Of a DNA stretch of 64,000 nucleotides, positions 3,726-51,960 are shown one piece after another. This DNA is from Alkalinema sp. FACHB-956 (GTDB lineage: Bacteria > Cyanobacteriota > Cyanobacteriia > Leptolyngbyales > Leptolyngbyaceae): contig NZ_JACJRC010000013.1 of assembly GCF_014697025.1 (NCBI RefSeq), forward strand, positions 62,001 through 126,000, read 5' to 3'. Under the pieces are notes generated by a model. It saw only the letters and a program-made list of their open reading frames with translations. It ran no database searches and had not been told where the DNA came from. Position 1 is the first letter of the stretch. The number at the start of each line of letters is the position of its first letter. Position numbers and translations under genes: made by a program.

Positions 3726-4128
3726 CGGATTCAAAATGCAGGTTCAGCAAACACAGATGCCACAGTGGTTGAGGCCATGAGTGGTTGAGGCCATGAGTGG
3801 TTGAGCCCATGGAGCTTAGCCCATGGAGATGTCTAAGCCCGTGTACAGACCTTTCATCGGCAACAGAGGCCAACTGTATCGCGTTCGTCTTGCATTTTCA
3901 ATGTTCAAAGTCCCGATCGAGAAATCTGAGGCGTTGCTTCTGATGATTTCCAACCTCAGATTGCCCAGTAGAGTGCGGTTAATCACAGTGGGAAGAAAAT
4001 TACTTCAGGCACGATCGAGGGGCGATCGGCCCAGGTTTTTTTTACGCTTGAAACCTTCACGCTCAAAGTTGCTCACAACCTCTCAACTGCAAATTTTCAA
4101 GCTGCAAATTTTCAAGCTTTAGGTTTTT
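3726..4128. other. Gene-free stretch with two tandem repeats
   Basis: I see no credible gene. It holds three copies of a 16-bp unit AGTGGTTGAGGCCATG (3764-3811, third copy one mismatch) and two exact copies of a 15-bp unit CTGCAAATTTTCAAG (4087-4116). A 99-codon plus-strand frame here has no recognisable features or ribosome-binding site and was not called. Confidence 0.6.
3764..3811. repeat. Tandem repeat, 3 x 16 bp
   Basis: Unit AGTGGTTGAGGCCATG at 3764-3779 and 3780-3795, and AGTGGTTGAGCCCATG at 3796-3811. It lies just upstream of mutY. It belongs to a set of unrelated short tandem repeats scattered through the window. Confidence 0.9.
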
Positions 4129-4461
4129 CTACGCTTCAAAATTAGACAGCGTTTGCTCCAGAGTCATTCGCTGTTCCACATTGCGCAGAAAGTAACCACT
4201 CATCATCGCCGAAGCCAACAACTGCCCCAAACTCTCGCGGTTGGTGGTAATCGAAACATCAAAGGCTCCAGATGGCAGTCCACCTAACAACCCGATAATA
4301 TTGCGCTCCATGGCTTGAAGCACTTCCGAAGAACCAGGGCGAGATAACTGAGCAACGGTTTCTGGACTCAGCGACTGAACATAATCCCACAATTGGCTGG
4401 GATCGTTGCCATGGGAATTAAATTCAGAAAGATTAATCGCGTCGTTCACGGGAACCTCCAT
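4129..4461 (-). CDS. DUF760 family protein
   Basis: This 110-residue protein matches the cyanobacterial and plastid DUF760 family as I remember it: L-W-D-Y-V-Q-S-L-S-P-E-T-V-A-Q-L-S, then A-M-E-R-N-I-I-G-L-L-G-G-L-P-S, I-T-T-N-R-E-S-L-G-Q-L-L-A-S-A-M-M-S-G-Y-F-L-R-N-V-E-Q-R-M. No signal peptide or membrane segment is present, so it is probably cytosolic and helical. Its biochemical function is not known to me. It starts at ATG 4461 with no strong Shine-Dalgarno. It is monocistronic, with gene-free stretches on both sides. Confidence 0.85.
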   Translation of the reverse strand: MEVPVNDAINLSEFNSHGNDPSQLWDYVQSLSPETVAQLSRPGSSEVLQAMERNIIGLLGGLPSGAFDVSITTNRESLGQLLASAMMSGYFLRNVEQRMTLEQTLSNFEA

Positions 4462-9968: not shown

Positions 9969-12377
9969 ATGCAGCAATTTCATCATTCTTTGAGTCTCAC
10001 CATACAGGGTCACAAGGAGGTTGAACAACAGCTTAAACAAAAACAGTGGACGATTGCTCAGTTAGCGGATGTGGCTTCGGTTCACCTGACGATCGCTCAG
10101 AATTTCCAGGCTGGGAAACAGGTAGATTCTGAAAGCTTTTCCCGTTTGTGCCATGCGATCCAAATCCATTGGGGATCAGTTTGTGCACAAACCCTGGATT
10201 CATTGCAGGCCATGTCTCCATCCTGTCTCTGTGAATTCAGCGGTTGTACCACCGATTTGGATGCCTGTCATGAATTGTCCTTTCAGATTATTCGGCAACA
10301 ATGCCGCGAAAAAATTCTGTCGCAGCATAGCAAAATTCGCTTATTCAATCAGCAACTCATTGAGATTGATCAACTCTATGTTGATAGTTATTTTTTAAAC
10401 GCTCCGACCAAAATCAGTGAACTGACTGCTCTCGGGCGTTGGGGTGTGCGAAAATCTAGTTTTGCAGTTGCCAATGCTCCCTCGCCGCTCCTCGTATTAG
10501 GCAAACCGGGCGCAGGAAAAACCACCCTGCTGAAACAACTCGCGATCGCTTGCTGTCGGGGACAGTTCAAATCTGAGTTAATTCCAGTGTGGATTGAACT
10601 TCAACCCGTGGATCACCCCCATTGGCACTTTTTATATGCCATTTTGGAGGCGATGGGTTTATGTTCCCAGGAATCCCATGCCCAAGAATTTGCCCAAGAC
10701 CGAGAGCGGCTCAACCAACTCCTAACCCAAGGCCAGCTCTTAATCTTCATAGATGGCTTGGATGAAGTCCCCCTGGCCTTTCGCAAAAAGGTGCAAGAGC
10801 AAATTTGTTGGTTGTTACAACATCCGGTGTATCGCAAAAATGATGTGATCCTCAGTTGCCGAACACCCACGATCGAAGCTTGGAGCCCACGTTGGAAAAA
10901 TCAATTATTTACAGCAGTGGAAATTGCTGACTTGAATGAGCGACAAGTGGAATCCTTCGTTCAAGCCTGGTTACAAACCCGCCGAGAGGCCCAACAACCT
11001 CTAGAGCGACCGTGGCAATCATTTTTTTCCAGCCTTAGGCGTTGTTTTGAGCGTAGGGAACTGACACTGACGCCCATGCTGTTGGGGTTGGCCTGTTGGG
11101 TTTTTGAAAATACGGGGGATCTGCCGCCCCAGGTGTCTCAACTTTATGGAGCAGCGATCGAGTTACTGCTGACCCCGGGCCAAGCCGAGCTCCAGGTATC
11201 CTCCAAATTAGCGGAGCGGATTTATCATCAATTGACTTCTCTCGATCGCAGGCAGATCCTCATGGAAATTGCGATTCGCAAAATTGAGACTTCGCCTAAT
11301 TTTGTGATTTTTGATCAGTCTGAGCTGGTGAATTGGATTAACCAGATTCTGGAATTGCATCACTATCGCGATGGCTTAGCAATTCTCATGATGATTGCAG
11401 ATAAACAAGGTTTGCTGATACAAAAAGCCGATCGTCGCTGGTCATTTTCCCATTCGATTTTTCAGGAATATTTCATTACGCAATGGTTGCTGCAACAGTC
11501 TCCCATGCAACTTGCGGAGAAGCTGATTCATCCATCTTGGCAACCGGCGATCGAACAAATTGTCCGCTCTCAAAAACAATCCGATCGCTTAATCGGTGCG
11601 CTCAAACAAGCCATTGATCAAATGCTGGCTCAGGATACCCAACTCCAAACCTTGCTGCGGTGGGTCAATCAAAAAGCGAATACCTTGGTCGTCCCCTATA
11701 AACCGGCGGCGGTGCGCATGTTTTACCTTGGGTTGGCCCATGCCTTAACGAGCGATCTTAGCCGTGATCTGGCCCGTGCCCGTGCCCTAGATGCGGCGTT
11801 GGCGATCGATGTCACGCTGGATTTAGATTTAGACTTCAACCTCGATTTAGACTTTGCCCTAGCCCGCATCCTAGCCCGTGCCCTGGATTTTGACCTCGAT
11901 CGGGCCTTGGCGCTGGCCCGTGCCCTGGCCCGTGCCCTGGATTGCACCCTAGCGCTGGCCCATACGCCTGCTTTGGCCTTGGATTGTGCCTTGGAGGAAA
12001 CCCTCTCGCTGGATCTCATCCGGGCCTTGGACTATGCCCTCGATTGTGCCCGTACCTTGGCCCCAGATCTGACCCATTCTCTCGCACACTACAGAGCCAT
12101 CATCCTAGCCGCAGAACAAAATGGAATGGATACGTTTTTAGGCTGGTGGCAACTCTACGGCCAACAGTGGATAGAGCAACTCCGTCAAATTATCATTACC
12201 CATCGCAATCTTGGTCATGCATGGCCCCTAAGTCGGCAACAGAAGGAACGACTGAAGCAATACGATCGCGCCAATCAATTTCTTGTGCAATTGCTGAAAA
12301 TTGAAGGAGCCGTGAGTGAAGCAACGAAAAGTCAGATCGAAACAACGTTATTGCTACCGGCGACCAGAATCTTTTGA
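9969..12377 (+). CDS. NACHT-family NTPase with N-terminal HTH and Ala-Leu-Asp-rich tail
   Basis: 802 residues. Residues about 12-75 resemble the small helix-turn-helix found at the N-terminus of cyanobacterial NACHT/NB-ARC proteins. The NTPase has Walker A G-K-P-G-A-G-K-T-T (178-186), Walker B L-L-I-F-I-D-G-L-D-E (257-266) and sensor L-S-C-R-T-P (295-300). A winged-helix region ends in F-S-H-S-I-F-Q-E-Y-F (493-502), typical of NACHT proteins. Residues about 586-705 are a low-complexity array of A-R-A-L-D / L-D-L-D units, then about 95 ordinary residues. Bacterial NACHT proteins are STAND switches, several shown to block phage. No effector domain such as a nuclease or protease is recognisable, so the output is unknown. 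The repeat tail may be a coil-forming or sensor segment (inference). Confidence 0.85.
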   Translation: MQQFHHSLSLTIQGHKEVEQQLKQKQWTIAQLADVASVHLTIAQNFQAGKQVDSESFSRLCHAIQIHWGSVCAQTLDSLQAMSPSCLCEFSGCTTDLDACHELSFQIIRQQCREKILSQHSKIRLFNQQLIEIDQLYVDSYFLNAPTKISELTALGRWGVRKSSFAVANAPSPLLVLGKPGAGKTTLLKQLAIACCRGQFKSELIPVWIELQPVDHPHWHFLYAILEAMGLCSQESHAQEFAQDRERLNQLLTQGQLLIFIDGLDEVPLAFRKKVQEQICWLLQHPVYRKNDVILSCRTPTIEAWSPRWKNQLFTAVEIADLNERQVESFVQAWLQTRREAQQPLERPWQSFFSSLRRCFERRELTLTPMLLGLACWVFENTGDLPPQVSQLYGAAIELLLTPGQAELQVSSKLAERIYHQLTSLDRRQILMEIAIRKIETSPNFVIFDQSELVNWINQILELHHYRDGLAILMMIADKQGLLIQKADRRWSFSHSIFQEYFITQWLLQQSPMQLAEKLIHPSWQPAIEQIVRSQKQSDRLIGALKQAIDQMLAQDTQLQTLLRWVNQKANTLVVPYKPAAVRMFYLGLAHALTSDLSRDLARARALDAALAIDVTLDLDLDFNLDLDFALARILARALDFDLDRALALARALARALDCTLALAHTPALALDCALEETLSLDLIRALDYALDCARTLAPDLTHSLAHYRAIILAAEQNGMDTFLGWWQLYGQQWIEQLRQIIITHRNLGHAWPLSRQQKERLKQYDRANQFLVQLLKIEGAVSEATKSQIETTLLLPATRIF

Positions 12378-16576: not shown

Positions 16577-16608
16577 ACCGATATTACAAACTACCGATAT
16601 TACAAACT
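16577..16608. repeat. Tandem repeat, 2 x 16 bp
   Basis: ACCGATATTACAAACT at 16577-16592 and 16593-16608. It overlaps a CAAACTACCGATATT word (16587-16601) that is 13/15 identical to CACACTACCGAAATT at 51458-51472, the same relative place before the second leader promoter. Confidence 0.85.
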
Positions 16609-16612
16609 ATCT

Positions 16613-16649
16613 CTGTACGGTTGACAGCGTGGGACTTTCTTCGTAGGCT
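16613..16649 (+). promoter_or_regulatory. Promoter of leader RNA copy 1
   Basis: CTGTACGG (16613-16620) directly abuts TTGACA (16621-16626); 17 bp later is TAGGCT (16644-16649). The 13-bp word CTGTACGGTTGAC is repeated exactly at the second locus (51494-51506), again with a 17-bp-spaced -10 candidate. The -10 here is weak. Transcription would start near 16656, leaving a leader of about 265 nt. Confidence 0.55.
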
Positions 16650-16679
16650 TGTTTCTCATAGCTGAGTGCAAACGTGTTT

Positions 16680-16920
16680 TGTCAGCCCCGTTGGTCGAAG
16701 ACCGACCGTAAGGGCAATGAATCAGCTAGACCCCAAAAATTAAGGCGCTGCCCCAGTTGCGACCAACAACGTAAGGCAGCTAAACCCCGAAGCTGATTCC
16801 GGCAGCTAGGCGGTCTGACACGGATTTTAACATTCGATCGGGCCACCCTACTTGTCCTGCGCAAAAGGGTGGTCTTAATTTTTGGGATTTCTTCCCATCA
16901 CCTCATTTAGGAGAAATCCC
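16680..16920 (+). promoter_or_regulatory. Switch-like leader RNA, copy 1
   Basis: The elements in order are as follows. P1 is GAATCAGCT (16719-16727) with AGCTGATTC (16791-16799). CCCAAAAATTAAG lies at 16732-16744. P2 is GCTGCC (16747-16752) with GGCAGC (16775-16780). Then come the conserved CTAAACCCCGAAGCTG (16780-16795), a terminator-like hairpin 16841-16849/16866-16874 followed by a T-tract, and an 11-bp hairpin (one G-U) GGGATTTCTTC (16884-16894) with GGAGAAATCCC (16910-16920) that buries the Shine-Dalgarno right before ATG 16921. CCCAAAAATTAAG is perfectly complementary over 13 bp to CTTAATTTTTGGG (16874-16886), so it could compete with both hairpins. A second leader at 51541-51774 has the same plan with different paired bases. 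The ligand, if any, is unknown. Confidence 0.7.
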
Positions 16921-17148
16921 ATGTTTACTGGCTTTGGCGGCAACGATCGCCCAGAAACTTCGATCGACGATTCCCGCAGACCCTTCCAAATCTACCTCCT
17001 CGGCACCCGCGAAGAAATCCAATCCACGATCAACCAACTGCAAGTGGTGCGGTTTTGTGAGCGGATTCGTTGGAGTCCACCGATTCCAGTCCTCGGCTCC
17101 GATTGGAAATATATCAGCATGATGGAACGCGATCGGGCGTCGGAATGA
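16921..17148 (+). CDS. Small protein downstream of leader copy 1, unknown function
   Basis: 75 residues, starting at ATG 16921 directly after a Shine-Dalgarno (AGGAG, 16909-16913) that sits in a hairpin stem. Residues from R-P-F-Q-I-Y-L-L-G onward align without gaps to the small protein at 51775-51960 (shared L, G, I, L, V, F, W, S, G at fixed spacing over about 51 positions), so the two are probably homologous. The predicted order is beta strand, helix, then strands. No membrane segment or signal is present. It has a loose resemblance to short DUF3970-type proteins, from memory and unproven. It is monocistronic; the next gene runs the opposite way. Confidence 0.75.
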   Translation: MFTGFGGNDRPETSIDDSRRPFQIYLLGTREEIQSTINQLQVVRFCERIRWSPPIPVLGSDWKYISMMERDRASE

Positions 17149-51493: not shown

Positions 51494-51530
51494 CTGTACG
51501 GTTGACGGAAAAAGCGATCGCCGCTACATT
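51494..51530 (+). promoter_or_regulatory. Promoter of leader RNA copy 2
   Basis: CTGTACGG (51494-51501), TTGACG (51502-51507), 17 bp, TACATT (51525-51530). The first 13 bp are identical to the first locus. Transcription would start near 51537, giving a leader of about 238 nt. Confidence 0.6.
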
Positions 51531-51540
51531 GCTATAGTTA

Positions 51541-51774
51541 AGCAGCAATCGGACATTCAAACCCTGCTGCCGATACGCCCAAAAAACTAGCGCGATCGCA
51601 ATGAGATTCCAGCCTCAGAACGATCGCTAAGCCCCCAAGCTGCTGATACCAGCATGGTTGCCTGGATTGCATTTTAGCACCCCAAGCCGCCCTGTTTCGC
51701 CATGTCAGAAAACGGGGCGGCTAGCTTTTTTGGGTTTTCCTCGTCCATTGACTTCACATTTTGGAGGAAAACCT
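51541..51774 (+). promoter_or_regulatory. Switch-like leader RNA, copy 2
   Basis: Same plan as copy 1. P1 is AGCAGC (51541-51546) with GCTGCT (51639-51644). A small extra hairpin is ATCGG/CCGAT (51548-51552/51570-51574). CCCAAAAAACTAGC lies at 51578-51591. P2 is GCGATC (51592-51597) with GATCGC (51622-51627). The conserved CTAAGCCCCCAAGCTG (51627-51642) is 14/16 identical to copy 1. A 12-bp terminator-like stem at 51686-51697/51710-51721 is followed by TTTTTT. The Shine-Dalgarno-burying stem is GGTTTTCCTC (51733-51742) with GAGGAAAACC (51764-51773). CCCAAAAAACTAGC pairs with GCTAGCTTTTTTGGG (51720-51734) with one bulged C. Paired arms differ from copy 1 yet remain complementary. Confidence 0.72.
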
Positions 51775-51960
51775 ATGACCCGCTATACCAAGAAGATCAA
51801 GCTGCAACTGAGTGGCGAAGCCGATGCCGTTGATGCTGCAATTGGCATTTTGCACGTTATCAACTTCATCAGTGCCCACGAATGGAGTCAAACCGTCCGC
51901 AAACGGGGAGAACCCACCGTCGTGCGCGTTGCAGCTCGGGAGATCATGCTAGAAGGCTAA
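51775..51960 (+). CDS. Small protein downstream of leader copy 2, unknown function
   Basis: 61 residues, basic, starting M-T-R-Y-T-K-K-I-K-L-Q-L-S-G at ATG 51775 with Shine-Dalgarno GGAGG held in a 10-bp stem. The predicted order is strand (K-I-K-L-Q-L), helix (A-V-D-A-A-I-G-I-L-H-V-I), then strands (T-V-V-R-V-A-A). It aligns without gaps to residues about 19-69 of the 75-residue protein at 16921-17148. It resembles short DUF3970-type proteins, from memory and unproven. It is monocistronic; the TIR-WD40 gene starts 386 bp downstream. Function unknown; a nucleic-acid or protein-binding role would be a guess. Confidence 0.78.
   Translation: MTRYTKKIKLQLSGEADAVDAAIGILHVINFISAHEWSQTVRKRGEPTVVRVAAREIMLEG

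Follow-up and report, generated by a model that had tools for sequence, protein, structure and literature searches.

The window, i.e. the whole stretch of 64 kb that was analysed, comes from the 6.2-Mb genome of Alkalinema sp. FACHB-956 and contains two copies of a structured leader, at 16.6 kb and at 51.5 kb, each followed by a small gene. The parts of the first copy are:

16621..16649, plus strand: sense promoter read in the sequence (TTGACA, 17-nt spacer, TAGGCT)
16732..16744, plus strand: 5' strand of helix P1, the antiterminator strand, CCCAAAAATTAAG; 12 of 13 P1 pairs vary on both sides in 55 diverse members
16747..16780, plus strand: P2 hairpin with covarying stems P2a (16747-16752/16775-16780) and P2b (16756-16759/16767-16770)
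16760..16766, plus strand: first of two hypervariable loops (loop 1), here CGACCAA; copies of types I and II have a diversity of 0.51-0.58 per column
16791..16807, plus strand: P3 hairpin, AGCUG/CAGCU; 5 of 5 pairs vary on both sides in alignment A6
16796..16802, plus strand: second hypervariable loop (loop 2), here ATTCCGG; copies of types I and II have a diversity of 0.63-0.69 per column
16812..16844, plus strand: P4 helix, GGUCUGA/UCGGGCC; 95% of cells paired in alignment A1, with CG-to-UA double changes
16824..16832, minus strand: putative antisense promoter, extended -10 TGTTAAAAT, with the conserved pattern TGnTAnnnT
16732..16817, minus strand: proposed antisense RNA of ~85 nt, predicted to form two hairpins with complementary loops and to end in the T-rich complement of P1 5'
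16840..16875, plus strand: P5 terminator hairpin, with TTAATTTTT after it up to 16883; 98.7% of A6 cells are paired
16874..16886, plus strand: 3' strand of P1, CTTAATTTTTGGG, spanning the T-tract and the first GGG of P6
16883..16921, plus strand: P6 hairpin burying the Shine-Dalgarno sequence AGGAG (16909-16913), from the sequence and the fold of 16818-16925
16921..17148, plus strand: open reading frame of a small gene, 75 aa, of an unnamed cyanobacterial protein family

Judging from the promoter, transcription of this copy probably starts near 16656. Two perfect 16-nt direct repeats, ACCGATATTACAAACT, adjoin the promoter on its upstream side (16577-16608), and similar TTGCAAA-like repeats lie at the same place in other copies; they are perhaps an activator site.

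The original prediction described a terminator-like stem with a T-tract, a stem masking the Shine-Dalgarno sequence directly before the ATG at 16921, and an upstream 13-base segment competing with both. All three elements are present. The terminator stem pairs approximately 16840-16848 with 16867-16875, the Shine-Dalgarno stem has 10 perfect base pairs (16883-16892 with 16912-16921; 12 pairs in the fold), and folding 16818-16925, the 3' part of the leader, on its own yields both hairpins (z -4.2). The two P1 strands are 100% complementary over 13 nt.

The second copy consists of:

51502..51530, plus strand: sense promoter (TTGACG, 17 nt, TACATT)
51576..51738, plus strand: RNA core of type III, 102.9 bits with covariance model R1
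51671..51679, minus strand: putative antisense -10, TGCTAAAAT
51775..51960, plus strand: small gene, 61 aa

Recurrence at 51.5 kb had also been predicted, from the shared words CTGTACGGTTGAC and CTAARCCCCSAAGCTG, and these are indeed exact, occurring twice each in the 64-kb window, at 16.6 and 51.5 kb. The second element is a copy that has diverged from the first but keeps its layout, with compensatory differences. With 2-3 mismatches allowed, the words by themselves could be due to chance; what makes the likeness significant is the approximately 76 copies in the genome and the covariation across genera. A gene for a TIR-domain-like protein runs from 52348 onwards, downstream of the second copy, and a NACHT-like gene with Asp/Leu/Ala-rich repeats lies at 9969-12377 of the window.

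Fold, distribution and gene context of the RNA family

DNA search found some forty similar places in the genome, and covariance-model search found approximately 76 copies on the proper strand, belonging to three types. The covariance model R1 was built from 28 of the own-genome copies, while R2 is a broader model. A copy in this genome consists of a promoter, the leader and a gene of 60-75 aa. The sense promoter pattern TTGAn-N16-19-TAnnnT lies at most 170 nt upstream in 171 of 181 family cores. Homologues with covarying stems were found in other genera. Among 386 sampled cyanobacterial genomes, 10 have matches with R1 and 14 with R2; within the family of this organism 13 of 42 genomes carry the element, with 1-11 copies each apart from the present genome. 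Scanning named genomes with a pattern, and confirming the hits with R1, gave Microcoleus, Tychonema, Lyngbya, Leptolyngbyaceae, Symploca, Limnofasciculus, Myxacorys and others as carriers. An Anaerolineae MAG contig (L169), not among the sequences from which R2 was built, scores 54.6 bits with R2; the contig may be mis-binned, or else the distribution is wider and mobile. On this contig a 79-aa ORF lies downstream of the element (3985-4150, minus strand), and genes for a serine recombinase and a type I methylase are nearby.

None of the 4227 Rfam families matches the window or 11 homologous loci at gathering score, and relaxed thresholds likewise gave nothing, which agrees with the earlier statement that the leader was not recognised as a known riboswitch class. 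No description of the RNA family was found in the open-access literature, and plasmid and phage collections contain no match to the RNA. In 55 diverse members (alignment A6) both partners vary in 29 of 34 base pairs, and there are 316 double-change cells compared with 93.5 (sd 8.3) in shuffles, none of 500 shuffles being as high; this alignment was made by fitting to the model, a bias towards the structure. Covariation is also above shuffles and slid controls in an unfitted MAFFT alignment of the own-genome copies. Because so many pairs covary and Rfam has no match, we conclude that the RNA family is real and undescribed.

Variants of the P2 stem covary, e.g. GUUG/CAAC, GCUG/CAGC and UGAG/CUCA, and P4 covaries among the own-genome copies. 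Between leader and gene the element has an intrinsic terminator, P5 with its T-tract, together with alternative pairings that would prevent it. P1 pairs with the T-tract, and the 3' arm of P4 overlaps the 5' arm of the terminator, so that P1 and P4 each compete with a part of the terminator; P1 also rivals the Shine-Dalgarno hairpin for GGG. Masking of the Shine-Dalgarno sequence, evident in copy 1, is not general. In Microcoleus-type leaders and some others the 3' hairpin stops short of the Shine-Dalgarno sequence, and we regard masking as a lineage feature. A 20-bp extended antiterminator suggested by RNAalifold for the own-genome copies was rejected, since it fails by eye in several other genera. 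The linker between P2 and P3 is conserved as far as the Anaerolineae MAG.

The leader is usually followed by a gene for a protein of 60-90 aa from an unnamed family, sometimes by unrelated genes and sometimes by none. Own-genome copies of the small gene differ mainly at third codon positions, an indication that the small protein is under selection. The 75-aa protein has distant relatives in 24 other genomes of the 386 sampled and two distant matches in the plasmid and phage collections, both on cyanobacterial plasmids; Pfam, NCBIfam, PADLOC, PHROGs and PDB sequences gave no significant match. The proteins have no evident membrane segment. The AlphaFold model is a soluble-looking beta-alpha-beta fold of low confidence (mean pLDDT 68), with which Foldseek found no significant match (best E 0.25). 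A complete recognisable gene is missing in 4 of 75 own-genome copies checked, at least one of which (L142) is a contig end. Elsewhere the leader precedes a 79-aa acidic protein (L187), a 327-aa DNA methyltransferase gene lying directly downstream with no small-protein gene (L218:1501-1663), or a protein of about 200 aa from an unnamed family with a KFVEGRGKFISYR motif and without Pfam match (L158:1921 and L162:509). Four stand-alone copies in MAGs (L155:1358-1515, L174:7456-7613, L196:1180-1333 and L156:312-465) have no gene, no sense promoter and no T-tract, and keep the whole fold with a long and different P1 and an intact minus-strand TGATAnnnT. Three of them (L155, L174 and L196) adjoin the same FAD-oxidoreductase-like gene. 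Unrelated downstream genes and stand-alone copies indicate that the module is portable.

Hypervariable loops and the opposite-strand promoter signature

Two loops of the leader differ from everything around them. Compared with the per-column diversity of loops 1 and 2 given above, the rest of the core in the same two types has about 0.07-0.10, and their terminator loop (18-19 nt), which lies outside the proposed antisense RNA, has 0.035-0.041. In 75 intact own-genome copies all loop pairs are distinct: among 2775 copy pairs loop 1 is common to 16, loop 2 to 11 and both to none. The loops are variable in other genomes too. Identity of the loops between copies is ~0.35-0.45 even with 4-fold-degenerate sites 80-95% identical, a comparison that recombination between leader and gene, among copies, may blur. 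Copy pairs with near-identical upstream flanks have equally diverged loops. The loops are thus copy-specific, as in incompatibility, and diverge faster than synonymous sites. It is very unlikely that this is only drift or the work of mutation hotspots in a leader that duplication and gene conversion have multiplied. The similarity of leader and gene is mosaic, suggesting recombination among copies, but the 18-22-nt terminator loop does not drift, the loops are saturated where synonymous sites are still largely identical, and conversion would homogenise 7-nt loops together with their flanks. A template-driven diversity-generating mechanism was considered and set aside: the loop positions hold all four bases, not A-only changes.

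What do the loops pair with? Kissing in cis between loops 1 and 2 is absent (2.84 compared with 2.82, sd 0.07, in shuffles), and no pairing partner was found in the rest of the locus, which makes the opposite strand the obvious one. Between own-genome copies there was no pairing for P3-P3 or P2b-P3, and for P2b-P2b a modest excess of complementary 5-mers (178 compared with 119, sd 20). This excess of complementary loop-1 pairs would suit a trans-encoded RNA partner, and two exposed loops of 6-8 nt on constant stems could also be recognised by an RNA-binding protein, perhaps the small protein itself in autoregulation, given that the downstream gene is usually of one family. We consider partners of this kind improbable. 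A trans-encoded RNA has to contend with the missing complement in the locus and in the other loop combinations between copies, while a protein reader would be expected to conserve the loops rather than diversify them, is difficult to reconcile with the same leader preceding unrelated genes, and gains nothing from the fold search of the low-confidence protein model.

P4 has a single strongly conserved stretch, whose minus-strand sequence is TGnTAnnnT in all three own-genome types as well as in other genera. It is at the same place in 97 of 98 cores (96 by pattern and L099 by eye; L100 alone is without it). By a pattern search that fixes five positions it is found in 169 of 181 cores, with 3 more outside the search window, and most remaining cores without the TG retain a -10-like hexamer by eye. 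Position 5 of the hexamer, left free by the pattern, is A in 33 of 38 representatives, n and the central positions being degenerate; in sequence the free positions also look like those of a -10 element. An RNA starting ~7 nt past this extended -10 would contain no hairpins other than P3 and P2, and it would stop close to the T-rich sequence complementary to P1 5'. It would span exactly P1 5', P2, P3 and the 5' arm of P4. U-turn YUNR motifs, known to speed antisense pairing (PMC6562991), are enriched in the antisense loops (49 compared with 28, sd 4, and 43 compared with 27, sd 4). No -35 box is apparent for the putative antisense promoter and the antisense terminator is weak in sequence, its T-tract being several bases past the hairpin; both points, as read in the DNA, speak against an antisense RNA.

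Antisense attenuation as the proposed mechanism

The riboswitch-type control originally predicted stands in part: the leader is structured, and its mutually exclusive helices are able to govern termination and translation, with no sign of a ligand. The copy number of ~76, the two hypervariable loops, the opposite-strand promoter signature and the unrelated downstream genes shift the reading to attenuation by an antisense RNA. A new class of metabolite- or ion-binding riboswitch, in which the P1-P4 junction would be the aptamer and P1, P5 and P6 the expression platform, is unlikely. It would account for the multi-helix junction closed by a covarying P1, for the conserved linker CUAA-CCnCC-AA, for the terminator and Shine-Dalgarno hairpin, for the use of the leader before several unrelated genes and for the fold kept in stand-alone copies. 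It leaves unexplained why exactly two loops are hypervariable beside one frozen loop and why there is a -10 signature on the opposite strand. Nor do known riboswitches resemble an element with some 76 copies in front of one paralogous family; no metabolic gene is linked to the element and the gene context suggests no ligand. Orphan riboswitch candidates, such as the cyanobacterial motifs in Rfam, share with this leader conservation, covariation and an expression platform, and differ from it in the Rfam match, the loops and the opposite-strand signature.

Antisense-controlled attenuation is the simplest model that uses every part, and it is somewhat probable that each copy is a self-contained attenuator of this kind, privatised by divergence of its loops. 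The sense promoter would give the leader, in which P1 and P4 would favour read-through and translation, P1 by pairing with the T-tract and the start of the Shine-Dalgarno hairpin and P4 by pairing with the 5' arm of the terminator. The putative minus-strand promoter inside P4 would give an RNA of ~85 nt complementary to P1 5', P2, P3 and the P4 5' arm. This RNA would contact both loops first and then sequester both antiterminator strands, whereupon the P5 terminator, and in this lineage the masking hairpin P6, could form and turn the gene off. With a single stretch of DNA encoding both RNAs, the loops would be free to change, and selection against cross-silencing would lead to a unique loop pair in each copy.

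When the part covered by the antisense RNA is blocked in silico, the probability of the terminator is ~1.0 compared with 0.79 in the free leader; the modelled effect at equilibrium is therefore modest. P1 is weak in other genomes (0.25). With the free terminator at ~0.8 and P1 weak elsewhere, antitermination would have to be kinetic. Occurrence of the leader module before unrelated genes argues for the antisense model. Against it are the four gene-less copies that lack a T-tract and retain the entire fold, and the P2-P3 linker, which is conserved beyond the needs of antisense pairing alone. More tentatively, the genome may contain ~76 mutually orthogonal chromosomal antisense attenuators, each controlling one member of the small-protein family, with ongoing selection or a dedicated mechanism diversifying the two loops and so keeping the copies private.

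Diverging loops of this kind resemble plasmid incompatibility. As in pIP501 (RNAIII/repR) and pT181 (RNAI/repC), a terminator lies just upstream of the start codon, antiterminator helices are present, and an antisense RNA over two leader loops is proposed here. In pIP501 the antisense RNAIII causes attenuation within the repR leader, with a requirement for two loop pairs (PMC4981023). Unlike those plasmid systems, the present element has ~76 copies dispersed in the chromosome-scale assembly of one genome and stands before small proteins without a named family and other genes, not before replication genes; no sequence relation of its leader to theirs is expected. Sib/Ibs type I toxin-antitoxin systems exist in several chromosomal copies in E. 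coli. Their cis antisense RNA uses the target recognition domains TRD1 and TRD2 (PMC8309996). The two systems are alike in that a small gene occurs repeatedly on the chromosome, every copy having a cis antisense RNA, which is proposed in our case; the differences are that IbsC is a 19-aa membrane-acting peptide, shorter than the proteins encoded here, and that the present leader would be an attenuator.

The RNA family is new, while the mechanism of antisense attenuation is already known from plasmids. Our results add an undescribed, strongly covarying RNA family to cyanobacteria and draw attention to an unnamed small-protein family with dozens of copies in some genomes. If the antisense reading is true, nature would have provided in these leaders a large set of orthogonal RNA switches, ready-made as parts for RNA circuits. 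In that case, evolution in the style of plasmid incompatibility would have been played out inside one chromosome, with the private loops as its chromosomal equivalent.
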